A DNA stretch of 64,000 bases from Rhodoferax sp. GTDB taxonomy: Bacteria; Pseudomonadota; Gammaproteobacteria; Burkholderiales; Burkholderiaceae_C. Shown here one piece after another: positions 24,529 through 58,250 of this stretch. Location: positions 3,728-67,727 of the forward strand of contig NZ_JAGPBB010000010.1 of the NCBI RefSeq assembly GCF_018063565.1, written 5' to 3'. The number at the start of each line of letters is the position of its first letter. Within the stretch, counting starts at the first letter, position 1. The position numbers and the translations under genes were made by a program. The notes beneath the pieces were generated by a model. It had not been told where the DNA came from and made no database searches. It saw only the letters and a list, made by a program, of their open reading frames with translations.

Positions 24529-24542
24529 AAGAAGTTCATCCC

Positions 24543-25328: not shown

Positions 25329-25347
25329 GCACGCAGGAGTTAAGCAC

Positions 25348-26277: not shown

Positions 26278-26323
26278 AACTGGTCCTGACATTTTTCCAG
26301 CCCCCAACGAATAGAGAATCGAC

Positions 26324-27400
26324 ATGTTCTACAGAGAAAACGGCCAATTCAAGACCAGCTACCGGGCCGATCAGCAGATTTTTCCGATTGCACAGGATCG
26401 CTGGGCGGTACTGCTGATCATCGCCGCGGCATATCTGGTGGTGCCGCTGTTCAGCAGCGACTACATGTTCCGTGCCATCCTGATCCCGTTCCTCATCATG
26501 GCGCTGGCTGCATTGGGGGTCAACATCTTGGTCGGTTACTGCGGCCAGATTTCTCTGGGGTCGGGCGCCTTCATGGCGGTGGGGGCTTATGCCGCGTTCA
26601 ATTTTTTTGTACGTGTGCCAGGCATGCCACTGGTTGCTGCGCTGGTGTTGGGTGGTATCTGTTCGGCGGCGTTTGGAATCTTGTTTGGTTTACCAAGCCT
26701 TAGGGTCAAGGGCTTGTATTTGGCAGTGGCCACGCTGGCGGCGCAGTTTTTTGCCGACTGGATGTTCTTGCGCATCAAATGGTTCACCAACGACGCGCCC
26801 TCGGGGTCGGTTTCGGTATCAGGACTGCAGGTATTTGGCATGCCCATTGAGTCGCCGCTTTCCAAATACCTGCTGTGTCTTTCCCTTTTGGTGGTGATTG
26901 GCCTGCTGGCCAAGAACCTGGTGCGTAGTGCCATGGGACGGGAGTGGATGGCGATCCGCGACATGGACGTGGCCGCTGCGGTGATCGGCATCCGTCCGAT
27001 GTATGCCAAATTGACTGCGTTTGCGGTCAGCTCGTTCATCGTTGGTATGGCGGGGGCGTTGTGGGGCTTTGTCTATCTGGGTTCCTGGGAGCCGGCGGCG
27101 TTTTCGATCAACCAGTCGTTCAATCTGTTGTTCATGGTGATCATTGGCGGCATGGGCTCCATCATGGGCAGCTTTTTTGGTGCCGCGTTCATTGTGTTGC
27201 TCCCCATCTTTTTGAACCAGTTCTTGCCGCTGCTGGGTGGTCTGGTCGGTGTGCAGATTTCGACGTCGGGAATTTCTCACGCTGAGCTGATGATTTTTGG
27301 CGCGTTGATTGTCTGGTTTCTGATTGTTGAGCCGCATGGGCTGGCCAAACTCTGGTCCATTGGCAAACAAAAGATGCGCTTGTGGCCATTTCCACACTGA
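26324..27400 (+). CDS. livM: Branched-chain-type ABC transporter permease, LivM
   Basis: A 358-residue inner-membrane permease, the partner of LivH. About ten spans; LNVNILVGYCGQISLGSGAFMAVGAYAAF-type sequence (about 65-95) and the coupling loop GREWMAIRDMDVAAAVIGIRP (about 205-225) are typical of the family. The first 40 residues form a soluble tail (NGQFKTSYRADQQIFP), common in the subset of LivM proteins linked with CoA ligases. It lies 46 bases after livH and 63 before the binding-protein gene. Confidence 0.92.
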   Translation: MFYRENGQFKTSYRADQQIFPIAQDRWAVLLIIAAAYLVVPLFSSDYMFRAILIPFLIMALAALGVNILVGYCGQISLGSGAFMAVGAYAAFNFFVRVPGMPLVAALVLGGICSAAFGILFGLPSLRVKGLYLAVATLAAQFFADWMFLRIKWFTNDAPSGSVSVSGLQVFGMPIESPLSKYLLCLSLLVVIGLLAKNLVRSAMGREWMAIRDMDVAAAVIGIRPMYAKLTAFAVSSFIVGMAGALWGFVYLGSWEPAAFSINQSFNLLFMVIIGGMGSIMGSFFGAAFIVLLPIFLNQFLPLLGGLVGVQISTSGISHAELMIFGALIVWFLIVEPHGLAKLWSIGKQKMRLWPFPH

Positions 27401-27463
27401 TTTTGTTGTTTGTTCCCGTTCGTTAACCATAGGCACGTGAGTGTCAATTACTTAGGAGACTCC

Positions 27464-28780
27464 ATGAAAATTCGCAACATCGTTCTGGCCAGTGCCATGG
27501 TCGCTGCCGCCGCAGGGGCGTTTGCCCAGGCCAAAGAGCAGTTCTTCCCCGGTCTGCCGTATCGCACCGGACCCTACGCACCGAACGGGGTGCCATGGGC
27601 CAACGGCTACGCGGACTACATGGCGCTGACCAATGCGCGCGGTGGTATCAATGGCGTGAAGATCATTTACGAAGAGTGCGAGACTGGCTACGACACGGCA
27701 CGTGGTGTGGAGTGTTATGAGCGTCTTAAAGGCAAACATGGCGGTGCCACCGTGTTCCAGCCCTTGTCCACCGGTATCACGTTTGCTTTGACAGAAAAAG
27801 CGCCAGGCGACAAGATTTCCTTGATCACTGCAGGCTATGGCCGCAGCGAAAGCCAGGATGGCTTGATTTTCAAGTGGAACTTCCCGATCGCGGGCACCTA
27901 CTGGCTGGCTGCTGACGCCTTGGTGCAAACCATCGGCAAGAAGGAAGGTGGCCTCGACAAGCTCAAAGGCAAGAAGGTCACCTTGGTCTACCATGACTCA
28001 CCCTATGGTAAAGAGCCGATCCCGCTCTTGCAGGAGCGCGCTGCCATGCACGGTTTCAATCTGCAATTGTTGCCAGTCACTGCCCCAGGTGTTGACCAGA
28101 AAGCGACCTGGCTGCAGGTACGCCAGGCCCGTCCCGACTACGTATTGTTGTGGGGTTGGGGTGTGATGAATTCCACTGCGCTCAAAGAAGCTCAGGCTAC
28201 CGGTTATCCGCGTGACAAGATGTACGGTGTATGGTGGTCGGGTGCCGAGCCTGACGTGAAAGACGTGGGCGAGGGGGCCAAGGGCTACAACGCGGTCACC
28301 ATGCAACATGGTGCTGAACCCAATTCAGCCGTTGTCAAGGAAATCCTGGCCAAGGTCCATGGTGCTGGCAAAGGCAGTGGCCCCAAGGAAGAGGTGGGTT
28401 CGGTGCTGTACATGCGGGGTGCCATGAGTGCGATGTTCGCGGTTGAAGGTGTGCGACGCGCGCAAGAGCGTTTTGGCAAAGGCAAGTGGATGAATGGTGA
28501 GCAGGCTCGCTGGGGCTATGAAAACCTCGCGCTTGATCAAAAGAAGCTTGACGGGCTGGGTTTTGCCGGGGTTATGCGTCCGGTGGCCACCACCTGCGCC
28601 GACCACATGGGTTCCAACTGGGCGCGTGTACACACCTGGGATGGCAAACAATGGGCATTCAGCTCTGACTGGCTGCAGGCCGACGAGCAAATTCTCAAAC
28701 CCCTGGTCAAAAAGACGGCTGCCAAATATGCCGAGGACAAGAAGCTGACCCCGCGCACCCCGGCGGACTGCCAGTCCTGA
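27464..28780 (+). CDS. livK: ABC transporter substrate-binding protein, LivK type
   Basis: A 438-residue periplasmic binding protein with signal peptide (IVLASAMVAAAAGAFAQ). The type I periplasmic-binding fold shows RTGPYAPNGVPWANGYADYMALTNARGGINGVKI early on and the hinge region KVTLVYHDSPYGKEPIPLLQERA near 165-187. Longer than classical LivK (about 370), as usual for the class associated with aromatic or other carboxylic acids. The start ATG at 27464 has a TAGGAG site 8 bases upstream; the frame opens 18 codons earlier at a TTG that is not credible. Two strong hairpins follow the stop, as for the TAXI binding protein at 7193. Confidence 0.92.
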   Translation: MKIRNIVLASAMVAAAAGAFAQAKEQFFPGLPYRTGPYAPNGVPWANGYADYMALTNARGGINGVKIIYEECETGYDTARGVECYERLKGKHGGATVFQPLSTGITFALTEKAPGDKISLITAGYGRSESQDGLIFKWNFPIAGTYWLAADALVQTIGKKEGGLDKLKGKKVTLVYHDSPYGKEPIPLLQERAAMHGFNLQLLPVTAPGVDQKATWLQVRQARPDYVLLWGWGVMNSTALKEAQATGYPRDKMYGVWWSGAEPDVKDVGEGAKGYNAVTMQHGAEPNSAVVKEILAKVHGAGKGSGPKEEVGSVLYMRGAMSAMFAVEGVRRAQERFGKGKWMNGEQARWGYENLALDQKKLDGLGFAGVMRPVATTCADHMGSNWARVHTWDGKQWAFSSDWLQADEQILKPLVKKTAAKYAEDKKLTPRTPADCQS

Positions 28781-28789
28781 TATCTCCCC

Positions 28790-28844
28790 GCATCCCGGCT
28801 GCTAGCCGGGATGCCCAGCCAACAGTCCTGCGTGCAGGGTTGTT
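28790..28844 (+). repeat. Tandem stem-loops between the binding-protein gene and livF
   Basis: First hairpin: GCATCCCGGCT, loop GCT, AGCCGGGATGC (28790-28814), a perfect 11-bp stem. Second: CAACAGTCCTGC, loop GT, GCAGGGTTGTTG (28819-28844), a 12-bp stem if two G-U pairs are allowed. There is no T-tract. Probably a message-stabilising or transcription-damping element after the binding-protein gene. Confidence 0.75.
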
Positions 28845-28865
28845 GATTGGTGAAAGCTAGGAAAT

Positions 28866-29675
28866 ATGGAACCCAACAACATCGTTCTCAATGTCAATGG
28901 CATCGAAGTCATATACAACCATGTCATTCTGGTGCTCAAAGGTGTGTCGCTGAATGTGCCGCAGGGCAACATTGTGGCCATCCTCGGGGGCAACGGCGCG
29001 GGCAAAACCACCACACTGCGTGCCATCTCCAACCTGTTGCGTGGTGAACGGGGCGAGGTCACCAAGGGTTCGATCGAGTTGCGGGGTGAACGCATCGAAA
29101 ACCTGTCGCCCGCCGACCTGGTGCAGCGTGGTGTGGTGCAGGTGATGGAAGGGCGCCACTGTTTTGCCCACCTGACCATTGAAGAAAACCTGCTCACAGG
29201 CAGCTACACGCGCAAGGACAAAGGCGAAATTGCCGCCAATCTGGACAAGGTCTACACCTATTTCCCGCGCCTGAAAACCCGGCGCACCAGTCAGGCCGCC
29301 TACACCTCGGGTGGTGAGCAGCAGATGTGCGCGATTGGCCGAGCGCTCATGACCAACCCCAGCATGGTGTTGCTGGATGAACCGTCGATGGGATTGGCGC
29401 CGCAGATTGTTGAAGAGGTGTTCGAGATCGTGAAAGATCTGAACGAGAAAGAGAAAGTCACCTTCCTGCTGGCGGAACAGAACACCAACATGGCGCTCAA
29501 GTACGCCGACTATGGCTACATCATGGAGTCGGGCCGGGTGGTGATGGACGGTGTGGCCAGTGACCTGGCCAACAACGAGGATGTCAAAGAGTTTTATCTG
29601 GGCATGGGTGGTGGTGAACGCAAGAGCTTCAAGGACGTGAAGAGTTACAAGCGGCGCAAGCGCTGGTTGGCGTGA
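28866..29675 (+). CDS. livF: ABC transporter ATP-binding protein, LivF type
   Basis: A 269-residue ABC ATPase. Walker A LGGNGAGKTTTLR (about 38-50), signature TSGGEQQMCAIGRALM (about 148-163), Walker B MVLLDEPSMGL (about 168-178) and a LAEQNTNMAL switch region. The basic tail KSYKRRKRWLA is seen in LivF homologues paired with CoA ligases. It is translated from an ATG with GGAAAT upstream and its stop overlaps or abuts the next gene, a phenylacetate-CoA-ligase-like protein. Confidence 0.93.
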   Translation: MEPNNIVLNVNGIEVIYNHVILVLKGVSLNVPQGNIVAILGGNGAGKTTTLRAISNLLRGERGEVTKGSIELRGERIENLSPADLVQRGVVQVMEGRHCFAHLTIEENLLTGSYTRKDKGEIAANLDKVYTYFPRLKTRRTSQAAYTSGGEQQMCAIGRALMTNPSMVLLDEPSMGLAPQIVEEVFEIVKDLNEKEKVTFLLAEQNTNMALKYADYGYIMESGRVVMDGVASDLANNEDVKEFYLGMGGGERKSFKDVKSYKRRKRWLA

Positions 29676-29695
29676 CAGTTTTTTCTGGGAAGAAC

Positions 29696-30949
29696 ATGAA
29701 CAATTTTTTTGACGCGCTGGAAACGCGGGAACCAGCTGCGCGTGAAATGGCTCTGCTGAGCGCCTTGCCGGTGCAGGTGGCACACGCCAAGTTGGCCTCC
29801 CCGGCATTTGCGCAACTGCTACAGGACGTCGATCCGTTCAGTGTCAATAGCCGGCAGGCTCTGGCCCAACTGCCCGTCATACGCAAGCATGAGCTGCTTG
29901 AGCGGCAACTCGCCAGCCGCAAGCAAGGCCTTAGCGTGTTTGGTGGCTTTAGCGCCGCCGGTTTTGGTGCGCAAATGCCGCGTGTGTTTGCCAGTCCCGG
30001 TCCGATCTACGAGCCCGAAGGCACGGGACAGGATTACTGGCGGATGGCGCGCGCCATTTTTGCGGCCGGTTTCAGGCCGGGTGAATTGATCCACAACAGC
30101 TTCAGCTATCACTTTGTACCGGCCGGCTCGATGATGGAAACCGGTGCCCATGCGCTGGGTTGTACGGTGTTCCCCGGCGGCACCGGTCAGACCGAGCAGC
30201 AGGTGCAGGCGATGGCCGAGTTGCAGCCCGCAGGCTATATCGGTACACCCAGTTTCCTCAAGATCATTCTTGAAAAAGCGCTTGAGATGGACGTGCCTCT
30301 GCCCAGCTTGACCAAGGCCATGTTTGGCGGTGAGGCCTTTCCGCCGAGTTTGCGTGACTGGTTTGCGGCGCACGGCGTGGCTGGTTATCAGTGTTACGCC
30401 ACGGCCGATGTGGGTTCGATTGCGTTCGAAACCGCTTCGCGCGAAGGTTTGGTGGTGGACGAAGGCGTATTGCTGGAGATCGTGCGCCCGGGCACCGGTG
30501 ACCCGGTGGCTGCGGGGGAGGTGGGTGAAGTGGTGGTGACCACGCTGAACCGGACCTACCCGCTGATTCGTTTTGGCACGGGAGACCTGTCGGCGGTGCT
30601 GCCGGGCAGTTGCCCCACCGGGCGGACCAACACCCGTATCAAGGGCTGGATGGGTCGCGCCGATCAAACCACCAAGGTGCGTGGCATGTTTGTGCACCCG
30701 GGGCAGGTGAACACCGTTGTCAAGCGTTTCCCCGAGATCACTCGGGCGCGTCTGGTGGTCAGTGGCGAAATGGCCAACGACAGCATGACACTCAAGGTCG
30801 AAGCCTTGGGTGATGCCATCGGTCTGGCTGAACAGTTGACCCAGGCCATGCGGGACGTGACCAAATTGCGCGCCCAGGTCGAATTGCTGCCGATCGGCAC
30901 CCTGCCCAACGATGGCAAGGTGATCGAGGACGCCAGAAGTTATCAATAA
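29696..30949 (+). CDS. Phenylacetate-CoA ligase-like AMP-dependent synthetase
   Basis: A 417-residue adenylate-forming enzyme of the PaaK type. FDALETREPAAREMALLSALP at the start, HNSFSYHFVPAGSMMETGAHALGCTVFPGG (about 137-166), GEAFPPSLRDWFAA, CYATADVGSIAFET and the hinge-like RFGTGDLSAVLPG are typical. The C-terminal domain is short and ends in LPNDGKVIEDARS, where the usual catalytic lysine (GK) is present. It would activate an aromatic or related acid to its CoA thioester. It is the second ligase in this import operon. The ATG at 29696 with GGGAAGA upstream is preferred over a GTG at 29672 inside the livF end. Confidence 0.85.
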   Translation: MNNFFDALETREPAAREMALLSALPVQVAHAKLASPAFAQLLQDVDPFSVNSRQALAQLPVIRKHELLERQLASRKQGLSVFGGFSAAGFGAQMPRVFASPGPIYEPEGTGQDYWRMARAIFAAGFRPGELIHNSFSYHFVPAGSMMETGAHALGCTVFPGGTGQTEQQVQAMAELQPAGYIGTPSFLKIILEKALEMDVPLPSLTKAMFGGEAFPPSLRDWFAAHGVAGYQCYATADVGSIAFETASREGLVVDEGVLLEIVRPGTGDPVAAGEVGEVVVTTLNRTYPLIRFGTGDLSAVLPGSCPTGRTNTRIKGWMGRADQTTKVRGMFVHPGQVNTVVKRFPEITRARLVVSGEMANDSMTLKVEALGDAIGLAEQLTQAMRDVTKLRAQVELLPIGTLPNDGKVIEDARSYQ

Positions 30950-30998
30950 TATAGCGATAAACCCAATATGGGTAAGCGCCAAAACCAGTTTTTATGCT
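30944..30998. repeat. Dispersed AT-rich element after the PaaK-like gene
   Basis: Plus strand: TCAATAATATAGCGATAAAC, CCAATATGGGTAAGCGCCAA, AACCAGTTTTTATG. It keeps the ATAGC and (T)AAGCGC.A blocks of the family and overlaps the last codons of the ligase gene. It may double as a transcript end between the convergent ligase and DUF1840 genes. Confidence 0.5.
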
Positions 30999-31006
30999 GG
31001 AATAGA

Positions 31007-31342
31007 TCAGACACCCCAGGTGATGGGCTCTTCTTCTTTCTGGCATAACCGTATCATCTCCATCAAGGGCTGCGCGCGCTGGCGCAAGCCGATGGCGTCA
31101 AATCGGGGTGCTGGCAAGTGCTCGGCTTGTGCGGCGGCGATGGCATCGCGGCGTGCCGCTTCTTCGTGCGCGATGGCTGCGCTCAAGGCGTCCAGCGCCT
31201 GCGCCATCTGCTCTGGTAGCAAAATGCCCTTCACACTGGGTTCGTCGGCGCTGTGTTTGCCGATGATCTGTAGAACATGCTCGCCGTTGGGCTGCAACAT
31301 AATCACGTCACCGGCGGCTTTTGATTTGAATTTGTAGAGCAT
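31007..31342 (-). CDS. DUF1840 family protein
   Basis: A 111-residue small cytoplasmic protein beginning LYKFKSKAAGDVIMLQPNGEHVLQIIGK, the characteristic opening of DUF1840, a family found almost only in Burkholderiales and relatives. The rest is helical with an alanine-rich stretch (AQALDALSAAIAHEEAARRDAIAAAQAEH) and a short acidic end. The function of the family is not known. I placed the start at the ATG at 31342, where the conserved part begins; a longer frame adds 12 residues. It is divergent from the lipoprotein gene at 31413 and convergent with the CoA-ligase operon. Confidence 0.85.
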   Translation of the reverse strand: MLYKFKSKAAGDVIMLQPNGEHVLQIIGKHSADEPSVKGILLPEQMAQALDALSAAIAHEEAARRDAIAAAQAEHLPAPRFDAIGLRQRAQPLMEMIRLCQKEEEPITWGV

Positions 31343-31412
31343 TCCTGATGTCTTTCTGTGATGTGGTCTGTGAGCCAAAGGCTTCGGTCAGTCATGCTAC
31401 ACCGTGCCAGTC

Positions 31413-32513
31413 ATGGCGCTCGGTGTGATAACCCACATTGTCGCGCGGCGCTTGCTGCTGGCGCTGACGCTGCTGTTGGGTGCCTGCGCCGAAACCGCCT
31501 ACTACTGGCAGTCGATCGGCGGACACATGCGCCTGATGCAGTCGGCGCGCCCCATCCGCGACTGGCTGGAAGACGCGCAGACCGCGCCGGCGCTGCGTGC
31601 GCGCCTGCAACTGGCGCAGCAGATACGCCACTTTGCAACAACCCGGTTGCATCTGCCAGACAACGCCAGCTACCAAGCCTACGCCGATTTGCATCGCCGT
31701 CATGTGGTTTGGAACGTGGTGGCGACCCCCGAGTTTTCTCTGACATTGAAGACCTGGTGCTTTCCGGTGGCGGGTTGTGTGACTTATCGCGGCTATTTTG
31801 ATGAGTCTGCCGCCAACCAGCAGGCCAGCGAATTGCGCCATCAGGGATGGGAGGTCAGCGTTTATGGCGTACCGGCCTACTCGACCTTGGGCTGGATGAA
31901 CTGGGCTGGCGGCGACCCCCTGCTCAATACCTTTGTCCATTACAGCGATGGCGAACTGGCGCGCCTGATGTTTCATGAACTGGCCCACCAGGTGGTGTAT
32001 GTGGCGGACGACACGCGCTTCAATGAATCTTTTGCGACCGCTGTGGAGCGCCTCGGTGTGCGGCAATGGCTGGATTTAAAGGGCGATCCTCAGGTCAAAG
32101 CGCAGTACCAGCTGTTCGATCAGCGGCGTGTTCAGTTTCGTACACTGACCCGACAGACGCGCCAGAAGCTGCTTGATTTTTACGCTCAAAAACAGGCTCT
32201 AGCGCAATCTAAACAAGAGATTTCTGCTATAAAAAATAAGATCATGCAGGAGTTTCGGGCCGACTACACCCAGATCAAACAACAGTGGGGTGGTTACAGC
32301 GGCTTTGATGCCTGGGTGGCGCAGGCCAACAATGCGAGTTTTGCCGCACAAGCGGCCTATGATGATCTGGTGCCGGGGTTTGAGGCTCTGTTTGAGCAGG
32401 TCGGGCGCGACTGGCAGAGGTTTTATGATGCGGTCAGGCAATTGGCCAAAATGGCGGCAATCGAACGCAACACACACCTTCAACAATGGGCACAGGAGCA
32501 GACACTTGGCTGA
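31413..32513 (+). CDS. Putative zinc aminopeptidase lipoprotein (COG4324-like)
   Basis: A 366-residue predicted peptidase. The N-terminus is a lipoprotein signal (RRLLLALTLLLGAC, lipobox LLGAC with Cys25). The zinc motif is MFHELAHQVVYV with His188 and His192, and FNESFATAVERLG, carrying the third ligand Glu, lies 20 residues on, as in gluzincins. It is a predicted aminopeptidase anchored to the outer or inner membrane; the substrate is unknown. The start is uncertain: the ATG at 31413 or a GTG at 31404, neither with a good ribosome site. Its 3' part carries a dispersed AT-rich element encoding KQALAQSKQEISAIKNK. The stop overlaps the next gene by 8 bases. Confidence 0.82.
   Translation: MALGVITHIVARRLLLALTLLLGACAETAYYWQSIGGHMRLMQSARPIRDWLEDAQTAPALRARLQLAQQIRHFATTRLHLPDNASYQAYADLHRRHVVWNVVATPEFSLTLKTWCFPVAGCVTYRGYFDESAANQQASELRHQGWEVSVYGVPAYSTLGWMNWAGGDPLLNTFVHYSDGELARLMFHELAHQVVYVADDTRFNESFATAVERLGVRQWLDLKGDPQVKAQYQLFDQRRVQFRTLTRQTRQKLLDFYAQKQALAQSKQEISAIKNKIMQEFRADYTQIKQQWGGYSGFDAWVAQANNASFAAQAAYDDLVPGFEALFEQVGRDWQRFYDAVRQLAKMAAIERNTHLQQWAQEQTLG
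32186..32240 (+). repeat. Dispersed AT-rich element inside the aminopeptidase gene
   Basis: Plus strand: AAAAACAGGCTCTAGCGC, centre AATCTAAACAAGAGATTTC, TGCTATAAAAAATAAG. In reverse orientation it gives ATAGCA...GCGCTAGAGCCTGTTTTT, an excellent fit to the family. In frame; it encodes a Lys/Gln-rich helix. Confidence 0.7.
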
Positions 32514-32862
32514 TTTACACATCGTTCGCGAACACAGCTTGGGCCTGGCCAAAGCCAGAAAGATCGCCTTTCAATGGGCTGAACAGGTCGAGGCCGATTT
32601 CGGCATGGCTTGCAGCTATGCAGAAAGCAAGGGCGGTGATGAGGTGGTGTTTTCCCGCTCAGGCGTCAAAGGCAACTTGCTGGTGCACAAAGACCGTTTT
32701 GAATTGCGCGCACAACTCGGTTTTCTGTTGGGCGCATTCAAGCACAAGATCGAGGCCGAAATTGTCAAAAACCTCGATACCTTGCTCGCGCCAAAAACAG
32801 AACCGCAAGCACCTCGGGTGGTGCGCGCACGGCCCAAACAAAAGGCCGGGTCAGCTGAGTGA
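32506..32862 (+). CDS. Polyhydroxyalkanoic acid system family protein (PHA_gran_rgn)
   Basis: A 118-residue protein. DLHIVREHSLGLAKARKIAFQWAEQVEADFGM followed by FSRSGVKGNLLVHKDRFELRAQLGFLLGAFKHKIEAEI matches the family named for polyhydroxyalkanoate-system proteins (TIGR02610/PHA_gran_rgn) as I recall it; its biochemical role is not known. The start is a TTG at 32506 with AGGAG 8 bases upstream, overlapping the lipoprotein stop by 8 bases, so the two are translated in a coupled way. The basic, proline-rich tail is not conserved. Its 3' end overlaps that of the convergent acyl-CoA-binding protein gene by 12 bases. Confidence 0.82.
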   Translation: MADLHIVREHSLGLAKARKIAFQWAEQVEADFGMACSYAESKGGDEVVFSRSGVKGNLLVHKDRFELRAQLGFLLGAFKHKIEAEIVKNLDTLLAPKTEPQAPRVVRARPKQKAGSAE

Positions 32863-33105
32863 TTCGATCAAGTCAACGTACTGCTGCATGGCGTCGTTGC
32901 TGGCCGTACCTTTTAGCCCGTTCCAGGCGTCCCACTTGGCGCGTCCCACCATGTCGGTGAATCCAGGTTTCTTTTCTGTGTTGTCACCGCTGCTGGCTTG
33001 TTTGTACAGGGCGTACAACTTGAGCAAGGTCATGTTGTCGGGGCGCTCACTCAGATTTTTTGAGTTGGCAACGGCGGCTTCGAACTTGGTTTTCAGGGCT
33101 GACAT
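32851..33105 (-). CDS. Acyl-CoA-binding protein (ACBP)
   Basis: An 84-residue protein, the normal length for ACBP. LKLYALYKQASSGDN (about 28-42) and AKWDAWNGLKGTASNDAMQQYVDLIESL (about 55-82) are the conserved acyl-CoA-binding helices with the Tyr and Lys residues that hold the CoA 3'-phosphate. It binds long-chain acyl-CoA in the cytoplasm and can shuttle it between synthesis, beta-oxidation and storage. It lies beside a wax ester synthase gene and near a fatty acyl-CoA reductase, both users of long-chain acyl-CoA. ACBP is mainly eukaryotic but occurs in some Burkholderiales and other bacteria. Confidence 0.93.
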   Translation of the reverse strand: MSALKTKFEAAVANSKNLSERPDNMTLLKLYALYKQASSGDNTEKKPGFTDMVGRAKWDAWNGLKGTASNDAMQQYVDLIESLS

Positions 33106-33225
33106 GGCGGACTTTCCTTGGGTTCTTGGTTGTGAGGCTGGGGCAGTGCGTATCAGGGTAATACACAGCTATCTTAAAGGCGCGATTGCCGACAAAATAG
33201 AGATCATTCCCAAAAAAGCCAGTGT

Positions 33226-34713
33226 ATGGTGACCCGAAAAGATATTCCATTTACCGTAGAGCGCATGAGCAAGGTGGACACCGCCTGGCTGCGCATGGAT
33301 GCCCCAAGTAACCTGATGATGATTGTTGGGGTCTGGATCATCAAGCCGCGTGTGCGGTATGCCGCAGTGTGCGAGCGCATCGAGGAGCGTTTGCTCAAGT
33401 ATCCGAGATTTTCTCAGCGCGTACAGCTCGATGCAACCGGGGCCAACTGGGTGACTGATACCCGGTTCAGCATCAGGCGTCATGTGCTGCGTGAAAAACT
33501 CCCGGCTTCGGCCAAGTCCCAGCCGGAACAGGCGCTGCAGCAACGTCTGGGTGAACTGGCGATGCAGCCTTTGGATGCCCGCTATCCGTTGTGGGATTTT
33601 CGTTTGGTGGAGCATTACGACGGCGGCTCTGCCCTGGTGGCGCGGATCCACCATTGCATCGCCGACGGGCTGGCTTTGATCTCGGTCATTCAGTCCTTGG
33701 TGGACGGTGGATCCGACCCACCCCAGCGGGCACCGCGGGGGGCACACCCGCATGGCTGGGAGGCGGCCGAGGAGTGGATGAGCCACACCCTGATCGAACC
33801 CTTGACGGTGGCTGCCGTCAAGGCATTGGAAGTTGCTGGTGATGGGGCAGTGCATGCTTTCGAGGCCATGGGCGACCCACGCAATGTGTTGGAGCGCTGG
33901 CTGGAAAGTGGTTTCAGCAAAGGTAAGGCCGGGTCGGCGGAGCTTGCCCGGTTGGCCTATCAGGTGTTGCGTGACGGTGCGGCGCTGGCGCTGATGCCCG
34001 ATGACTCGCCCACACGCCTCAAGGGAATACCTGGCACCAGCAAACGCGTCGCCTGGTGTCGTCCCATTCCGCTGGATGAAGTGCGTGCGGTGAGCAAAGC
34101 CTTGCGCTGTTCGATCAACGACGTGCTACTGGCCAGTGTGGCCGGCGCCATCGCCCAGTATCTCAAGGGCCATGGTGACGCGGTGCTGGGCAAAGAGGTA
34201 CGGGCCATGGTGCCGGTGAACTTGCGCCCGATGTCGCAGGCGTACAAGCTGGGCAACCAGTTTGGTCTGGCACCGGTGGTGCTGCCTTTGGGTCTGGAAA
34301 ATCCGATCGCGCGTGTCTACGAGGTGCGTCGACGCATGTCCGAACTGAAAGGCAGCATGCAGCCCCTGTTGGCCTTTGGTATGTTGGCTGTGGCCGGGTT
34401 ACTGTTGAAGCCGGCTCAGGATGCGATGCTCAATCTGTTTTCCAAGAAAACCACGGCGGTCATGACCAATGTGCCCGGACCCCGTGAGAAACTGCAGTTT
34501 TGCGGTGCCACGCTGGATCAGACGCTGTTTTGGGTGCCGCAGTCCGGCACCGTGGGACTGGGTGTGTCAATTCTGAGTTACGGCGGTGGTGTGCAGTTTG
34601 GCGTGATCAGTGACACCACGTTGTGCCCCGACCCCCAAGCCATCATCGATGGTTTTGCCCCCGAGTTTGAGAAACTCAGTTGGCTGACTTTGATGTTGCC
34701 CTGGGATGATTGA
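33226..34713 (+). CDS. Wax ester synthase/diacylglycerol acyltransferase (WS/DGAT)
   Basis: A 495-residue acyltransferase that joins an acyl-CoA to a fatty alcohol (wax ester) or diacylglycerol (triacylglycerol). Visible motifs: KVDTAWLRMDAPSNLMMIVG near the start, PLW at 121-123, the catalytic HHxxxDG box as IHHCIADG with His143 and Asp147, the C-terminal ND motif SINDVLLASVAGAIAQYL, and the NVPGP and G-V-SILSY signatures. No membrane span is obvious; such enzymes attach to the inner leaflet and lipid bodies. Start at the ATG at 33226; an inner ATG at 33265 would drop 13 residues. Divergent from the ACBP gene, convergent with a TPR gene, 3.5 kb from a fatty acyl-CoA reductase that would supply its alcohol. 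Confidence 0.93.
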   Translation: MVTRKDIPFTVERMSKVDTAWLRMDAPSNLMMIVGVWIIKPRVRYAAVCERIEERLLKYPRFSQRVQLDATGANWVTDTRFSIRRHVLREKLPASAKSQPEQALQQRLGELAMQPLDARYPLWDFRLVEHYDGGSALVARIHHCIADGLALISVIQSLVDGGSDPPQRAPRGAHPHGWEAAEEWMSHTLIEPLTVAAVKALEVAGDGAVHAFEAMGDPRNVLERWLESGFSKGKAGSAELARLAYQVLRDGAALALMPDDSPTRLKGIPGTSKRVAWCRPIPLDEVRAVSKALRCSINDVLLASVAGAIAQYLKGHGDAVLGKEVRAMVPVNLRPMSQAYKLGNQFGLAPVVLPLGLENPIARVYEVRRRMSELKGSMQPLLAFGMLAVAGLLLKPAQDAMLNLFSKKTTAVMTNVPGPREKLQFCGATLDQTLFWVPQSGTVGLGVSILSYGGGVQFGVISDTTLCPDPQAIIDGFAPEFEKLSWLTLMLPWDD

Positions 34714-34719
34714 CCGGGT

Positions 34720-35493
34720 TTAGTCCTCAAGCTCGGCTTTGGCCATTTCGACTTCCAGTCGCTCCATGGCATCACGCGGATGGCTGCGTGACGCCAGTTG
34801 ATAGAGGTGTGTGGCTTCTTCCATCATTTTGTCGCCGTCAAACATCAGCAGTGCGCGGGCGTATTCCACCATGCAGCGGGGTGATTTGCTGTTGAGTTGC
34901 ATGGCGTTGGCAAAAAGTTTGAGCCCGACGTCTTTGTTCACGCCATACGCCATGGCACCAATCAGCGAGCCGACCTTGTCGATGATCTCGGCGTGAAAGT
35001 TTCCCAGCGCAATGTGGGCATCGGCATGTCTGGGTTGCAGCCGAATTACCTTTTCCAACTGGCTTTTGACCTTGTTGTCCAGACCCTGGGCCAGTGCCTT
35101 GGCGACACTCAAACCCTGGCTGTAGCGCCCCAGGGCAAAGGCCCACCAATAGTGCGCACTGGCATTGTCCGGTTGTGCCAGTGCCCGCTGCTCGGCACGC
35201 TGCGCCACCTGCAGGAACAGGTCAAGTCGGTGTTCTTCGTGTTTTTCCAGGTAGGTGGCGTGGGTGCAGGTGGCTTTGCAGTAAACCGTCAGGCCTTCGT
35301 GCCCCAGGCCCTGTCCCAGCGTTGCCGCTTTGTGAAATTCGCCATTGTGAAAATGCACCCAGGCTTGAAGGACTTGCGGATGGGTCGGCAAAGGCTCCAG
35401 ATCACCTGCGTGGAGCAAGAGCCACTTTCGGCTGAGGATGGCGGCATCAAAGTTGTCCGTGCCAGCATAAGGAAAAGCCGTCCATCTGGCCAT
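34720..35493 (-). CDS. TPR-like repeat protein of unknown function
   Basis: A 257-residue all-helical protein without signal peptide. Repeats reminiscent of tetratricopeptides are seen at about 95-110 (ASAHYWWAFALGRYSQG), 135-160 (LEKVIRLQPRHADAHIALGNFH) and 180-240 (LFANAMQLNSKSPRCMVEYARALLMF). Such proteins are usually scaffolds for protein assemblies. It is the last gene of a minus-strand run phasin, patatin, TetR, TPR in the lipid-storage neighbourhood, 32 bases after the TetR gene, and its 3' end nearly meets that of the WS/DGAT gene. A role in lipid-body or granule assembly is an inference from position only. Confidence 0.8.
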   Translation of the reverse strand: MARWTAFPYAGTDNFDAAILSRKWLLLHAGDLEPLPTHPQVLQAWVHFHNGEFHKAATLGQGLGHEGLTVYCKATCTHATYLEKHEEHRLDLFLQVAQRAEQRALAQPDNASAHYWWAFALGRYSQGLSVAKALAQGLDNKVKSQLEKVIRLQPRHADAHIALGNFHAEIIDKVGSLIGAMAYGVNKDVGLKLFANAMQLNSKSPRCMVEYARALLMFDGDKMMEEATHLYQLASRSHPRDAMERLEVEMAKAELED

Positions 35494-35525
35494 TTTTGTC
35501 TCCTAGAACCTGTTTTTTTGAACCG

Positions 35526-36182
35526 CTACCCTTTATTGTAGGCATCTGCAAGTTGCAGCAAATGGGCACGCTGGCCAGACTCAAGGTAAGGTGCCAACAA
35601 ATTCAGTGTGTGCTGCGCGCCACGCATCAGCGCAGACTGCGCGTTGTTGGGCTCAAGCGCATTGCGCGGGTCGCGCACATACTCATAACTGAGCCAATAG
35701 GTCAGCACCACCACCATGCTCGTCGCAGTGGCGTCGATCTCGCGCGAGTCGATCTGCAACGCACCACCCCGGCGCATGCCGTCAAGCAGCGCCCGAGCGG
35801 CACGTGTCTTGTTCTTCAGGACCAGCTGGAAATGAGTTTCCAGGCGGCGGTTCTTGCTCAGCAGGTCGTTGAGGTCGCGGTACAAAAAACGGTATTGCCA
35901 GATCAGCTCGAACAGGCTGTGCATAAAGAACCATGCGTCTTCCACGTTGCGCACATCGTCACTGGCGTTGAGCAACTCGCCCAGCTCGCGCTCAAAACGG
36001 TTGAACAGGGCGTTGATCAGCTCGTCTTTGGCCGGGTAGTGGTAGTAAAGGTTTCCGGGACTGATATTGAGCTCGGCCGATATCAGGGTAGTCGACACAT
36101 TGGGCTCGCCGAAGCGATTGAACAGCGCCAGTGTGACCTCAAGAATGCGCTCAGCCGTACGTCGTGGTGCCTTCTTTACCAT
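35526..36182 (-). CDS. TetR family transcriptional regulator
   Basis: A 218-residue regulator. The DNA-binding domain is at the start: RILEVTLALFNRFGEPNVSTTLISAELNISPGNLYYHYPAKDELINALF, where NISPGNLYYHYPAK is the recognition helix. The C-terminal ligand domain is hydrophobic with aromatic residues (WFFMHSLFELIWQYRFLYRDL), suiting an acyl or other lipid ligand. It overlaps the end of the patatin gene by 7 bases and is followed by the TPR gene. In this setting it probably controls the lipid-storage run and perhaps the divergent fatty acyl-CoA reductase; this is inference. Confidence 0.9.
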   Translation of the reverse strand: MVKKAPRRTAERILEVTLALFNRFGEPNVSTTLISAELNISPGNLYYHYPAKDELINALFNRFERELGELLNASDDVRNVEDAWFFMHSLFELIWQYRFLYRDLNDLLSKNRRLETHFQLVLKNKTRAARALLDGMRRGGALQIDSREIDATATSMVVVLTYWLSYEYVRDPRNALEPNNAQSALMRGAQHTLNLLAPYLESGQRAHLLQLADAYNKG

Positions 36183-37426
36183 GCGGTTTGACTTTCGGCG
36201 CGGGGATGATCCACCACCTGACTCAAATTGTTCATCAAGTCATGCAGCTTGGTCAACGCCCTTCCAATCCGGGCGGGCGGGTGTTTCGGCAAGCATAAAT
36301 GCCGATGGGAGTCGTCAAGCAGACGGTGATTCAGCGTGATCCCGTGGTAGCCAAACTTGGCCGTCAGATTGGTCTGATTGGAGCGCAGCATCTGGCGCGT
36401 CTGCTGGTAAGCGTGTTCCGCCAGGTGACGCCTTTGACTGTAGCTGAAAGTATTGGCCAAATACAATTCGGGGTCGCGATGGTTCGGCTCGATCAGCACA
36501 ATGTCGGTATTGGGATAGGATAGTTCGTAATTCTTGAGGCCAAGCACCATCCTCGAATGAATCAATGAGCGGAACGTCTGACTCAGCACGGCGGGCAGGC
36601 CCCCTTCCGCGATGCGCGGAATGGGTTCGGGTGCGGTCCATGGCATGATTCGGTCTCTCGCTGTAACCGGTGTTGTCGCGTCAAATGGCACCAGGGGGTT
36701 CAGGCACAACATCAGGTCCACACCCTCGTCGAGCGCGATCGACGCATGCATCGTTTTGATCAACGCGCCATCAACGAAATGCTGCCCATCAATTTCGACC
36801 GGTGGAAACAGGCCCGGCAAGGCCGCACTGGCCTGCACGGCACGGGAAATTGGCACATGGTCCCAACCCGGTCGGCCAAAGGGCACGGCGGTGCTGCTGT
36901 CGAGATGGGTGGCCACCAGTGTCAGGCGGCTTTTCAGTTGCCGAAAATCATTGCTGCGTCCCGGGCGGGAAAACAGCCGACTCAACTCGGTGTGGATCTG
37001 GGCATTGGAAAACAGACCGGTTGGCAAACTAGGGCTCAGCCGCTCAAGCGCCCGCATCCACGACTTGCGCCCCAGTGTGCCCTGCCAGACACCTGCCATC
37101 ATCAGTTCAGGCAACAGCAGGGAACGAGAAAAAAACTCGGAGAATGCAGGCCTGAGCAGCAGAGCAGGGTCAAAAATCTCGGTTTGACGTTTGCTGTCTT
37201 CAATGAACAGCGTGAACAACTGCTGTGGCGTGATGCCGTTGGCCAGTCCAGCCGCTATAAAACCGCCGGCAGAAACACCGACGTAATGTTGCAAGCGATT
37301 GAAGTCAATGCCGAGCAGTGAATCCTGGAGGGCGCACAAGGCGCCAATTTCATAGATGGCACCAAGAGGCCCGCCACCTGCCAACGCCAAAGCAATTCTG
37401 GGAGTGGCGGGTGGTGAAGTCTTCAT
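36176..37426 (-). CDS. Patatin-like phospholipase
   Basis: A 416-residue acyl hydrolase of the patatin fold. The oxyanion glycine loop ALAGGGPLGAIYEIGAL (about 14-30), the nucleophile GVSAGGF with Ser52 and the dyad Asp219 in HFVDGALI are all intact. Such enzymes release fatty acids from phospholipids or storage lipids in the cytoplasm; some patatins are lipid-body or PHA-granule depolymerases. No signal peptide. It lies 25 bases after the phasin gene and overlaps the TetR gene, so it is transcribed with both. A role in mobilising storage lipid is likely from context. Confidence 0.9.
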   Translation of the reverse strand: MKTSPPATPRIALALAGGGPLGAIYEIGALCALQDSLLGIDFNRLQHYVGVSAGGFIAAGLANGITPQQLFTLFIEDSKRQTEIFDPALLLRPAFSEFFSRSLLLPELMMAGVWQGTLGRKSWMRALERLSPSLPTGLFSNAQIHTELSRLFSRPGRSNDFRQLKSRLTLVATHLDSSTAVPFGRPGWDHVPISRAVQASAALPGLFPPVEIDGQHFVDGALIKTMHASIALDEGVDLMLCLNPLVPFDATTPVTARDRIMPWTAPEPIPRIAEGGLPAVLSQTFRSLIHSRMVLGLKNYELSYPNTDIVLIEPNHRDPELYLANTFSYSQRRHLAEHAYQQTRQMLRSNQTNLTAKFGYHGITLNHRLLDDSHRHLCLPKHPPARIGRALTKLHDLMNNLSQVVDHPRAESQTAW

Positions 37427-37451
37427 GGGTCACAGTTTAAGACCGATCGTG

Positions 37452-38060
37452 CTATTTCGACTCAGGGTTTACCTGATCCGCTTGGGTTTCAGCCACGGCA
37501 GGCTTGACAGCGGCTTTGGGCGAAGTCACTTTCTTCGCCACGGGTTTTTTTGCCACGGGTGCCTTCGCGGCAGTCTTGGGACCAGCTTTGGGCACGGTCT
37601 TGGCTGCAGGTTGGGTACCCGAGAGCTTTTGCACACTGGCATTGAGTTCGTCAATGCGTGCGATCAGTGCGCTGACATCCTTGGCAGACGGAACCCCCAG
37701 TTTATTCAGAGCCTTGGCGACACGGTCTTCAAAAATGTTCTCCAGCTTGTCCCATTGACCAGAGGCCTTGCTGGAGATGTCGGTCGCCATGCTGGACATC
37801 TTCTGAGTGGCTTCATTGATTTTTTCCTCGGCAGCGGACTGCGTCTTGCGCTGAAAACTGACGCCTTCCTTGACCAATGCCTCAAAGGCCTTGGTGCCTT
37901 CGGTCTGTGCCTTGGTGAATGCGCCCAGACCGGCTTGCCAGATCTGTTGTGCTGAATCTTTCACCGAGCCCGCCAGTGGCAATGCGGTCTTTTTGCTGGC
38001 GGTTGTTTTGCCACGTGTGGGTTTGCTGGGTGCTGCGGCTTTCGTAAGTTTGGTCACCAT
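37452..38060 (-). CDS. Phasin, PhaF/PhaI-like, with histone-like tail
   Basis: A 202-residue granule-associated protein. The N-terminal part is basic, then a phasin helix bundle (about 30-130: AQQIWQAGLGAFTKAQTEGTKAFEALVKEG, ending KALNKLGVPSAKDVSALIARIDELNASVQKL, typical of PhaF-type phasins). The tail (about 145-185) is made of AKxP/KKP repeats like those of histone H1, as in Pseudomonas PhaF, which binds both PHA granules and the nucleoid. No PHA synthase is in the window, so it may coat PHA made elsewhere or wax-ester inclusions. It is the first gene of the phasin, patatin, TetR, TPR run and is divergent from the fatty acyl-CoA reductase over a 199-base gap. Confidence 0.87.
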   Translation of the reverse strand: MVTKLTKAAAPSKPTRGKTTASKKTALPLAGSVKDSAQQIWQAGLGAFTKAQTEGTKAFEALVKEGVSFQRKTQSAAEEKINEATQKMSSMATDISSKASGQWDKLENIFEDRVAKALNKLGVPSAKDVSALIARIDELNASVQKLSGTQPAAKTVPKAGPKTAAKAPVAKKPVAKKVTSPKAAVKPAVAETQADQVNPESK

Positions 38061-38259
38061 GGTATGTACTCCGGTTGGTTCAAAAATAGTTTCAAAACAG
38101 GCTTGCGGCCCGAATTTGGCGCAACTGTAGGGGTACCGATGTTCGAGGTGTAGGTGTGTCTTACTAATTTGCCGGCCATGGGCGTGCTGCCCACGGGTTT
38201 ACGCTGAATGCAAAAAGTGCTGTTTCGGGCAAGAATGCGGCATCAGTAATGGAGTTGAC

Positions 38260-40257
38260 ATGCAATATTTTGTGACGGGTGCGACGGGTTTCATCGGAAA
38301 ACGTCTGGTTGGCAAGCTGCTGCAGCGAAAAGGCGCGGTGGTTTATTTTCTGATCCGCAAGGAAAGCCAGGACAAAGTCAAGGCGCTGCGCGAGTTTTGG
38401 GGTGTGGGGCCGACACGGGCCATCCCGGTACTGGGTGAGCTAGCTGACAAAAAACTGGGTGTGGCTGCGGCCGATATCAAGCAGATCAAGGGGCAGATCG
38501 ACCACTTTTATCATCTCGCCGCCATTTACGACCTGGGGGCTGATGAAGGCAGCCAGATCGCAGTCAACGTGGATGGGACCCGCAATACGGTCGATTTCGC
38601 CCGAAGCATTGAGGCGAAACATTTTCACCACGTGTCGTCTATTGCTGCGGCCGGTTTGTATGAAGGGGTGTTTCGCGAGGATATGTTCGATGAGGCCGAG
38701 AATTACGAGCACCCGTATTTCATGACCAAGCACGAGAGTGAAAAAATTGTGCGCACCGAGTGCAAGCTGCCCTGGAGCATTTACCGTCCGGCAATGGTCG
38801 TGGGCGATAGCCGCACGGGCGAAATGGACAAGATCGACGGACCCTACTATTTTTTCAAGCTGATTCAGCGTATGCGGCAGCTGTTGCCGCCATGGATGCC
38901 ATCGATCGGGCTGGAAGGTGGGCGCATCAATATTGTGCCGGTTGACTTTGTGGTGGATGCACTTGCCACCATCAGTCATCAAAGCAGCATTGCCGGCAAG
39001 TGTTACCACCTGGTCGATCCGGTGGGGTACCGCGTTGGTGATGTGCTGGATATTTTCAGCCGTGCCGCGCATGCGCCCAAGATGAACCTGTTTATCAATG
39101 CAGCGCTGCTGGGTTTTATACCGCGCAGCGTCAAGAAGGGGCTGATGGCGCTGGCACCGGTGCGCCGCATTCGCAGCGCCATCATGGCCGATCTGGGGTT
39201 GCCGGAAGACATGCTCACCTTTGTGAACTACCCCACGCGTTTTGATTGCCGGGACACTGTCGCCGCACTCAAGGGGACCGGTGTTGCCTGTCCCAAGCTG
39301 GATGACTATGCCTGGCGGTTGTGGGACTACTGGGAGCGGCATCTGGATCCGGACCTGCACATCGACCGCAGTCTGCGTGGCACGGTGGCCGGAAAGGTGG
39401 TTCTTGTCACAGGCGGATCTTCTGGCATTGGTTTGGCTGCAGCCCACAAGTTTGCTGAGGCGGGTGCTATCACTTTGATTTGTGGCCGCGACCAGGAGAA
39501 GCTTGACGAGGCGTGTGCCGAGGCCACCTCCCGCGGCTACAAGTTTGTTGCGTACGCCGTCGACATTGCCGAACAGGCCGCCTGTGACGCGTTTGTGCAG
39601 CAGGTGATCACGCAGCACGGTGGCGTGGACTTTCTGATCAACAACGCTGGGCGCTCCATTCGCCGGGCGATTGAGTCCAGCTATGACCGCTTCCACGACT
39701 ATGAGCGCACCATGCAGCTCAACTACTTTGGCAGCCTGCGCGTCACCACCGGCTTTTTGCCTGGCATGGTGGCCAAACGCAGGGGCCATGTGGTCAACAT
39801 CAGTTCCATTGGTGTGCTGACCAATGCGCCGCGTTTCAGTGCCTATGTGGCCAGCAAGGCTGCGCTGGATGCCTGGACGCGTTGCGCTTCCAGCGAGTTT
39901 GCCGATCAGGGCATCAGTTTCACCACCATCAATATGCCGCTGGTGCGCACTCCCATGATTGCGCCAACCAACCTTTATAACAACGTGCCGACGCTTTCAC
40001 CCGAAGAGGCGGCCGACATGATTGCGCAGGCCTGCATCTTTAAACCGGTGCGCATTGCCACCCGGTTGGGCATCACCGGGCAGATTTTGCATGCGGCCTT
40101 GCCTCGGGTAGCTCAGATCGCCATGAACACCAGTTTCAGGATGTTCCCCGATTCCAGCGCCGCAAAAGGTGCCAAACCTGACGAAAAATCTGCCAAGTCG
40201 CAACTGTCGCCCGAAGCGGTGGCGTTGCAGCAGATGATGCGCGGCATCCATTTTTAG
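38260..40257 (+). CDS. Two-domain fatty acyl-CoA reductase (alcohol-forming, Marinobacter type)
   Basis: A 665-residue protein made of two Rossmann enzymes. The N-terminal extended-SDR domain (1-370) has TGATGFIG (6-13), the HVSSIAAAGL strand and YFMTK with Tyr153/Lys157. The C-terminal classical SDR (374-600) has TGGSSGIG (384-391), NNAG (461-464), Ser515/516 and YVASK with Tyr529/Lys533. From memory, this length and order, with GEMDKIDGPYYFFK and MQLNYFGS, match the Marinobacter long-form fatty acyl-CoA reductase that reduces acyl-CoA through the aldehyde to fatty alcohol with NADPH. The alcohol would feed the WS/DGAT at 33226. An AAT-GGAG site precedes the ATG, and a terminator follows. 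The similarity is recalled, not computed. Confidence 0.88.
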   Translation: MQYFVTGATGFIGKRLVGKLLQRKGAVVYFLIRKESQDKVKALREFWGVGPTRAIPVLGELADKKLGVAAADIKQIKGQIDHFYHLAAIYDLGADEGSQIAVNVDGTRNTVDFARSIEAKHFHHVSSIAAAGLYEGVFREDMFDEAENYEHPYFMTKHESEKIVRTECKLPWSIYRPAMVVGDSRTGEMDKIDGPYYFFKLIQRMRQLLPPWMPSIGLEGGRINIVPVDFVVDALATISHQSSIAGKCYHLVDPVGYRVGDVLDIFSRAAHAPKMNLFINAALLGFIPRSVKKGLMALAPVRRIRSAIMADLGLPEDMLTFVNYPTRFDCRDTVAALKGTGVACPKLDDYAWRLWDYWERHLDPDLHIDRSLRGTVAGKVVLVTGGSSGIGLAAAHKFAEAGAITLICGRDQEKLDEACAEATSRGYKFVAYAVDIAEQAACDAFVQQVITQHGGVDFLINNAGRSIRRAIESSYDRFHDYERTMQLNYFGSLRVTTGFLPGMVAKRRGHVVNISSIGVLTNAPRFSAYVASKAALDAWTRCASSEFADQGISFTTINMPLVRTPMIAPTNLYNNVPTLSPEEAADMIAQACIFKPVRIATRLGITGQILHAALPRVAQIAMNTSFRMFPDSSAAKGAKPDEKSAKSQLSPEAVALQQMMRGIHF

Positions 40258-44271: not shown

Positions 44272-45098
44272 AAACCTCTGTTGCGGTTTCGGTGGTGATC
44301 CCGTGCTTTCGCTGTGCGAAAACCATTGAGCGTGCCTTGGCCTCGGTGGTGGCGCAGACCTGTCAGCCGGTCGAGGTGATTCTGGTCGATGATGCAAGCG
44401 GTGATGACACGCTTTCAGTCTTGCGTGCACAGCAGGCGAAATTTGAACCGGGCTGGATCAATTTGCTGGCGCTGGAGCAGAACCAGGGTGCTGCTAGCGC
44501 TCGAAATGCCGCCTGGGCCGTGGCCAGCCAGCCTTTTGTTGCTTTTTTGGATGCCGACGACGCCTGGCACTTCCGCAAGCTCGAAATCCAGTTCGCCTAC
44601 ATGGCAGCCAACCCCGATGTGGTGTTGTGTGGTCATGGGCACCGGCTGCTCAAACAGGGTGTGTTGCCGTATTGGGCCGTGCAAAAATCGGCCGGCATTG
44701 TGCTGCGCAAATGGCGCCTGATTTTGTCCAACCGCTTTGTGACGCCTTCGGTCATGATCCGGCGCGACACCGTACACCGGTTTGAAGAGCGCCAGCGGTA
44801 TATGGAAGACCATATGCTGTGGCTGAAAGTAGTGTGCGCCGGCGAGAAGGTGGTGAAGTTGCCGATGGATCTGGCCGCCATTTACAAAAACCCTTTCGGA
44901 GTCACGGGTTTGAGCTCGCAGGTGTGGCTGATGGAACGTAGCGATCTGGGCAACTACCAGCGCCTGTTCCGGCGGGGCAGTATCCAGCGTTGGCAGTTGT
45001 CGCTGTTGGCCGTTTATTCCGTGCTGAAGTATTTTCGCCGTCTGATCATTTATCTGATTTATTTGCGATGGAAAACCAAACGGCCGAAAGATCTATGA
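44268..45098 (+). CDS. Glycosyltransferase family 2
   Basis: A 276-residue GT2 enzyme with a basic, hydrophobic C-terminus. VSVVIPCFRCAKTIERALASVVAQTCQPVEVILVDDASGDDT (about 5-46) and VAFLDADDAWHF (DAD triad, near 90-100) are intact. The long frame begins ten codons earlier inside the previous gene, but the ATG at 44268 forms the ATGA overlap seen throughout this operon. The donor sugar is unknown. It is more distantly related to the other two GT2s here, so each probably makes a different linkage. Confidence 0.88.
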   Translation: MKTSVAVSVVIPCFRCAKTIERALASVVAQTCQPVEVILVDDASGDDTLSVLRAQQAKFEPGWINLLALEQNQGAASARNAAWAVASQPFVAFLDADDAWHFRKLEIQFAYMAANPDVVLCGHGHRLLKQGVLPYWAVQKSAGIVLRKWRLILSNRFVTPSVMIRRDTVHRFEERQRYMEDHMLWLKVVCAGEKVVKLPMDLAAIYKNPFGVTGLSSQVWLMERSDLGNYQRLFRRGSIQRWQLSLLAVYSVLKYFRRLIIYLIYLRWKTKRPKDL

Positions 45099-47348: not shown

Positions 47349-47399
47349 AACAATACGCCAAGTCGACTTTCAGGGATTTTTCATGAACAGGTATTTGAA

Positions 47400-47723: not shown

Positions 47724-47748
47724 GAATAGGGTGATTCAAGGTTATTGA

Positions 47749-52159: not shown

Positions 52160-53956
<1,797 letters not shown>

Positions 53957-53988
53957 ACTTTTTTAACCACTATTCGAGGAGACTTTAT

Positions 53989-54447: not shown

Positions 54448-54459
54448 ATCGCGCGCACT

Positions 54460-54529
54460 GTTCGCCCTGAGCTTGTCAAAGGGCATATCAGAACGTATTC
54501 AAGGGCTTCGACAAGCTCGGCCCTAACGG
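54460..54529. repeat. Inverted pair of GAGCTTGTC-type intergenic repeats
   Basis: Left arm TTCGCCCTGAGCTTGTCAAA at 54461-54480 and right arm TTCGACAAGCTCGGCCCTAA (54508-54527) are inverted, near-complementary copies of a widespread intergenic repeat. They could fold into a long hairpin between the DUF2147 and FadB-like genes. Confidence 0.75.
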
Positions 54530-54538
54530 AGTTAAACC

Positions 54539-56959: not shown

Positions 56960-57029
56960 TTTTTTTGCGGGACAGAACAAGATTTGCGCAGCAAATTTGC
57001 CCTCTCCCCAACTGATCAAAGGATTTCAA

Positions 57030-58223: not shown

Positions 58224-58250
58224 GGAAAATTCACGGATCCAGGATGCTGC

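Follow-up and report, generated by a model that had tools for sequence, protein, structure and literature searches.

We analysed a stretch of 64,000 nucleotides from Rhodoferax sp. (assembly GCF_018063565.1, contig NZ_JAGPBB010000010.1, positions 3,728-67,727 of the forward strand), referred to below as the window. The locus under study occupies window positions 31,007-40,257 and encodes a predicted fatty acyl-CoA reductase (FAR) and an acyltransferase of the wax ester synthase/diacylglycerol acyltransferase (WS/DGAT) family, together with a phasin, a TetR-family regulator and several further proteins. An earlier, sequence-only reading had taken eight gene families at this locus for a wax-ester module. 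For comparison with relatives, the window reductase served as a query; of at least 581 relatives, the best 80 supplied the loci used here. They came from Rhodoferax, Polaromonas, Acidovorax, Hydrogenophaga, Ramlibacter, Caenimonas, Roseateles, Tibeticola and Aquabacterium, as well as from metagenome-assembled genomes. In 55 of the 80, a complete 10 kb of sequence lies left of the FAR gene; these are called full loci. The genes and features of the window locus are listed here by window position and strand.

31007..31339, minus: DUF1840 protein (PF08895, 93 bits); flanking, not clearly part of the system; adjoins the locus in 18/55 full loci
31404..32513, plus: putative aminopeptidase (PF10023, 440 bits); present in 22/55 full loci
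about 32506..32862, plus: "polyhydroxyalkanoic acid system" protein PHA_gran_rgn (PF09650, 98.7 bits; TIGR02610, 50 bits, cut-off 40.25); TTG start assumed
32851..33105, minus: acyl-CoA-binding protein (ACBP) of 84 amino acids (PF00887, 103.5 bits); divergent from the WS/DGAT gene
33226..34713, plus: WS/DGAT acyltransferase (TIGR02946, 347 bits, cut-off 310); motifs HHCIADG, PLWD, SINDVLLA and NVPGP
34720..35493, minus: tetratricopeptide repeat (TPR) protein; weak TPR matches
35526..36182, minus: TetR-family regulator (PF13972, 150 bits); 5' end overlapping with the 3' end of the patatin gene
36176..37426, minus: patatin-like phospholipase/lipase (PF01734, 98 bits); motifs GGGPLG, GVSAGG and DGA
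37452..38060, minus: phasin with an Ala/Lys/Pro-rich tail (PF05597, 165 bits, cut-off 28.8; TIGR01837, 106 bits, cut-off 94.7)
38150..38167, plus: candidate regulator site GTAGG-N9-CTAA between the phasin and FAR genes; conserved, with inverted arms of three bases only
38260..40257, plus: two-domain FAR, NAD_binding_4 plus short-chain dehydrogenase/reductase (SDR) domain (NF005539, 1014 bits, cut-off 549); YxxxK in both domains

Judged by profile scores and intact enzyme motifs, all eight families named in the sequence-only reading are present. The gene of the polyhydroxyalkanoate (PHA) system is among them, at about 32506-32862; the gene at 31007 codes instead for the DUF1840 protein. The aminopeptidase gene, which also lies inside the interval, had been omitted. 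The strands and gaps define at least three transcription units: a leftward unit of phasin, patatin, TetR and TPR genes; the FAR gene, reading rightward out of a divergent region of 199 bases; and the divergent ACBP and WS/DGAT genes, with 120 bases between them. Thus, the locus is not one operon. Its clustering nevertheless exceeds chance, since the left flank of FAR holds the phasin in 55, TetR in 53 and TPR in 51 of the 55 full loci.

The reductase, the only one in this genome above the NF005539 cut-off, is predicted to be an alcohol-forming enzyme with both catalytic domains; its score lies well above that cut-off, and the YxxxK of each domain is kept in 80/80 relatives. The WS/DGAT likewise bears the intact HHxxxDG motif ascribed to it (as HHCIADG) and scores above the curated TIGR02946 cut-off; 31 of 32 related loci preserve the motif, and the alignment leaves the remaining one uncovered. 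The patatin GxSxG is kept in 58/58 related loci.

The genome has three WS/DGAT homologues, that of the window and two on another contig, C192. The C192 cluster (L092, 11861-15796) consists of an intact WS/DGAT (HHAMLDG), an alpha/beta-hydrolase-like gene and a WS/DGAT homologue with HHAAVDV, with a second hydrolase-like gene to the left; the hydrolase-like calls were made by eye. Homologues of this kind are called C192-type below, a loose class whose best matches outside their own genome are 37-58% identical. In one genome of the family, a C192-type and a window-type WS/DGAT adjoin each other (G090, contig C101, about 44893-47791).

Joint presence and absence of FAR and WS/DGAT

We surveyed the window's own family for these genes, taking 120 genera, evenly drawn, with one genome for each. 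FAR was called at E <= 1e-100, and distant reductases are therefore uncounted. FAR was present in 58 genomes, window-type WS/DGAT in 61, patatin in 43, TetR in 94, TPR in 64, phasin in 86, ACBP in 100, C192-type WS/DGAT in 46 and the PHA synthase domain PhaC_N in 118. FAR and WS/DGAT occurred together in 55 genomes and were both missing from 56; only nine genomes were discordant, three with FAR only and six with WS/DGAT only. A C192-type homologue is present in all three genomes that have FAR but no window-type WS/DGAT (two of these genomes are 85-86% complete); therefore, FAR is never found without a WS/DGAT homologue (0/58). Agreement was complete in the 74 genomes that lack a C192-type WS/DGAT: 20 have FAR and the window-type enzyme, 54 have neither and none is discordant. 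The C192-type enzyme was also considered as the chief partner of FAR and fits less well (both 38, FAR only 20, C192-type only 8, neither 54).

These counts were then set on a quick single-gene rpoB tree of 99 of the 120 genomes. The tree leaves out 11 genomes without an rpoB match (that of the window among them), nine with pieces below the cut-off and, in its final version, G093, the strand of which was ambiguous. Genome pairs that differ in FAR were compared along non-overlapping paths (n = 18). WS/DGAT shifted along with FAR in a mean of 12.4 pairs and in the opposite direction in 0.0 (median p 0.0005); an earlier tree that retained G093 gave 11.4 and 0.0 of 16 pairs. The corresponding values for the other genes (same/opposite, 18 pairs) were 9.7/0.4 for TPR, 9.4/0.0 for phasin, 8.8/0.4 for patatin, 7.4/1.1 for the C192-type WS/DGAT, 5.8/0.0 for TetR and 2.5/0.1 for ACBP. 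FAR and WS/DGAT thus appear and disappear jointly on the tree and are not independently scattered. Both the family counts and the tree bear out the proposal that the two act as a functional pair, and their co-inheritance is what a pathway in which WS/DGAT uses the alcohol made by FAR predicts.

Neighbourhoods and upstream elements in relatives

In the left flank of FAR, the 55 full loci hold patatin in 38 cases, ACBP in 27, WS/DGAT in 26, PHA_gran_rgn in 24 and the aminopeptidase in 22, in addition to the nearly constant phasin, TetR and TPR genes. The complete set of eight families was found in 19 of them (nine Rhodoferax, one Ramlibacter and nine others); nine of the 11 Rhodoferax loci have it, including those of R. 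ferrireducens isolate A7 and R. antarcticus. The ten Acidovorax loci among the 55, without exception, have no patatin at the locus and no WS/DGAT in the flank. Because of these gene counts and the Acidovorax loci, the locus is best described as two units, phasin-(patatin)-FAR and PHA_gran_rgn-ACBP-WS/DGAT, with TetR-TPR beside either; the two are joined in the window. Distances in the family survey follow the same lines. Within 10 kb of each other lie TetR and TPR in all 63 genomes that have both, FAR and phasin in 55/58, FAR and patatin in 34/37 and WS/DGAT and TetR in 35/60; ACBP is less than 3 kb from WS/DGAT in 58 of the 61 WS/DGAT genomes. FAR and WS/DGAT themselves are no more than 10 kb apart in 11 of the 55 genomes with both, a count to be read with the fact that many genomes are drafts and that in 30 of the 55 the pair sits on different contigs. 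With the whole set in just 19 full loci and the pair so rarely close, an eight-gene module as a fixed unit does not hold. The comparison of neighbourhoods across Comamonadaceae that the sequence-only reading had suggested thus finds the two enzymes co-inherited, with little physical linkage between them.

Part of this locus exists without the enzymes. The 56 genomes with neither FAR nor WS/DGAT include none with patatin, ten with TPR and 41 with ACBP, in addition to the phasin and TetR genes discussed below. We inspected ten loci from these genomes, picked for a TetR gene near phasin or TPR. ACBP adjoins TetR or TPR in seven of the ten, and some keep the order of the window (phasin, TetR, TPR, ACBP, in some cases PHA_gran_rgn, and aminopeptidase) minus FAR, patatin and WS/DGAT. 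Since this order is retained without the enzymes, the variable members of the locus are FAR and WS/DGAT, with patatin following less strictly. We infer that the conserved locus of aminopeptidase, PHA_gran_rgn, ACBP, TPR, TetR and phasin is older than the enzymes housed in it; the tree cannot separate gain from loss. A C192-type WS/DGAT stands beside phasin and TetR in one genome that has neither FAR nor a window-type WS/DGAT (G029, contig C9, about 29219-32943).

The sequence-only reading had placed the whole locus under one TetR regulator. A dyad search for a motif shared by the FAR and WS/DGAT upstream regions of 32 loci returned start-codon words only. Each side has a distinct conserved element of its own, and no TetR operator common to FAR and WS/DGAT was found in these loci. 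Counting the window itself, 58 of 78 FAR upstream regions contain TAGG-N9-CTAA, as against none of 32 WS/DGAT upstream regions. The longer form GTAGG-N9-CTAA at 38150..38167 is the sole exact match in the window; with one mismatch allowed there are two matches, which equals the chance expectation. A palindrome TAG-N11-CTA on the FAR side was tried and discarded, the word occurring in 0/78 regions; three-base arms around N10 remain. Upstream of WS/DGAT (33106-33225 in the window, and the orthologous regions), GGGT-N10-TATCTTA occurs in 20 of the 32 loci and TATCTTA alone in 29, and the full element was found upstream of FAR in none of them; it is perhaps a promoter. Control by a single TetR is thus not borne out: the two sides share no upstream motif, and the regulator is also present in 32 of the 56 genomes that have neither enzyme.

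Several neighbouring genes deserve mention. Directly to the left (22582-30949) lie genes for an AMP-binding acyl-CoA synthetase, a branched-chain-type ABC transporter and a PaaK-like AMP ligase, the last of which is beside the locus in 12/55 full loci. A polysaccharide-type cluster begins to the right of FAR at 40384; its genes were considered as members of the locus and rejected, being beside FAR in only 4/80 loci. About 12 kb to the right, past this cluster, the window (52160-59015) encodes beta-oxidation enzymes: an acyl-CoA dehydrogenase, a FadB-like protein, a thiolase and an enoyl-CoA hydratase.

A probable wax-ester pathway and its alternatives

The pathway that these genes suggest would begin with the N-terminal domain of FAR, which would reduce long-chain acyl-CoA to the aldehyde; the C-terminal SDR domain would convert the aldehyde to the fatty alcohol, and WS/DGAT would join this alcohol to a second acyl-CoA, giving a wax ester. 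The divergently encoded ACBP would deliver acyl-CoA to WS/DGAT. More tentatively, the phasin might coat the inclusions formed by the ester, or by ester and PHA together, and the patatin might release acyl groups from them. We consider it probable that FAR and WS/DGAT constitute a wax-ester step, a judgement that concerns the two enzymes and excludes the coat and the regulator. It is based on the families to which the enzymes belong, on their intact motifs and on how tightly they are co-inherited, from which we infer the substrates, the direction and the product.

Related routes have been described. In Marinobacter, a two-part FAR of the MAQU_2507 type and an enzyme of the WS/DGAT family likewise form a minimal two-enzyme route; the window differs in its divergent WS/DGAT, in the adjacent ACBP gene (the close pairing seen in 58/61 WS/DGAT genomes) and in the phasin/TetR/TPR locus. 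In Mycobacterium tuberculosis, the reductase FCR1 (Rv3391; 650 amino acids), which shares 40% identity with MAQU_2507 across 639 residues, produces fatty alcohol, and formation of both fatty alcohols and wax esters is impaired when it is knocked out (PMC3522743). FCR1 supplies alcohol for wax esters, as is proposed here for FAR, but it belongs to another phylum and to a dormancy context, and the account of FCR1 in that paper describes no phasin/TetR locus. Also related are the Burkholderiales scaffolds described by Galvan et al. in 2023 (PMC10351704), on which, as in the window, WS/DGAT adjoins ACBP, a MAQU_2507-like SDR and a PHA-system gene; the phasin lies on a separate scaffold. For the SDR homologues the paper gives about 59% identity to MAQU_2507, a figure that belongs to the published Burkholderiales proteins and not to the window FAR, and relatives of R. 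ferrireducens T118 are named as possible makers of wax esters or triacylglycerol. The Burkholderiales section of that paper gives no patatin, TetR or TPR gene and no co-inheritance count, and the word "patatin" has no occurrence in its text. The statement that no such set had been described in Rhodoferax-like bacteria was consequently too strong, as much of the neighbourhood is reported there for Burkholderiales.

Several observations weigh against a wax-ester module at this locus. The window WS/DGAT is only 23-25% identical to its two C192 paralogues (24% to the intact one) and matches the solved WS/DGAT 6chj with 75.5 bits, as against 182.5 for the intact paralogue; because it is so divergent, its acceptor is uncertain. 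The dependence of WS/DGAT on FAR is looser than the reverse, six genera (G009, G027, G050, G063, G107 and G113) having WS/DGAT and patatin and no FAR. Patatin is missing from 17/55 full loci, phasin and TetR occur without either enzyme (22/56 and 32/56 genomes), and the pair lies within 10 kb in few genomes, as given above. The co-occurrence of FAR and WS/DGAT is uncorrected for genome size and habitat. Lastly, searches of openly licensed papers, judged by title and abstract opening, yielded no wax-ester measurement in Comamonadaceae.

The strongest alternative, to which we assign slightly less than an even chance, is that there are two systems: a PHA-granule locus (phasin, TetR, TPR and PHA_gran_rgn) and a wax-ester pair merely housed in it, with phasin and TetR not acting on wax esters. 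This reading is compatible with the FAR and WS/DGAT step and contests only the coat and the regulator. PhaC_N is present in 118/120 genomes; therefore, the phasin may serve PHA, and for the same reason its presence was not taken to mark lipid inclusions in place of PHA. The survival of phasin and TetR in genomes without the pair, the seven of ten such loci that retain ACBP beside TetR or TPR, and the lack of upstream words shared beyond the start codon all favor two systems. Phasin, however, is found in 64/64 genomes with FAR or WS/DGAT versus 22/56 without, and it tracks FAR on the tree (9.4 to 0.0) more closely than a pure PHA role predicts. In the Pseudomonas pha locus, PhaD (TetR-like) accompanies the phasin PhaF; a TetR gene near a PF05597 phasin gene is common to that locus and the window, but no PhaC gene was seen in the window locus, and the likeness is one of gene content. 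A further idea, that in Comamonadaceae a PHA-type granule locus became the housing for a wax-ester pathway whose enzymes come and go together, with phasin, TetR and ACBP serving both in hybrid or switchable PHA/wax-ester inclusions, strikes us as unlikely.

It is quite improbable that WS/DGAT chiefly makes triacylglycerol while FAR works for a different purpose, such as providing alcohols for surface lipids. Triacylglycerol synthesis needs no FAR, and this reading would leave both the constant company of FAR with a WS/DGAT homologue and the lack of any discordance in the 74 genomes that have no C192-type enzyme to be accounted for. The six genera with WS/DGAT and no FAR and the divergence of the window enzyme do fit it, and WS/DGATs can be bifunctional (PMC5806253). 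A product other than a storage lipid, whether an ester (e.g., one of unusual alcohols) or a lipid that is secreted or goes into membranes, is very improbable, for although the divergent WS/DGAT and the polysaccharide-type cluster right of FAR would suit it, the genes of that cluster are rarely beside FAR (flippase and methyltransferase in 4/80 loci each, raw counts with some loci cut by contig ends) and the linked partners are ACBP and phasin.

The analysis thus points to a well-supported, predicted enzyme pair of the wax-ester type; the locus that houses it is common in Rhodoferax-like bacteria, and part of it was known before. Newer are the finding that the pair is co-inherited with the two genes seldom linked, and the division into enzymes that come and go and a stable granule-type locus. 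If the wax-ester assignment is true, wax-ester storage would be widespread and patchy in this family, with both enzymes in 55 of 120 genera against a nearly universal PHA synthase (118/120). The locus, with the enzyme pair in some relatives and without it in others, would then offer a natural comparison of how carbon is split between polyester and wax, and the same comparison would bear on whether one phasin can coat both.

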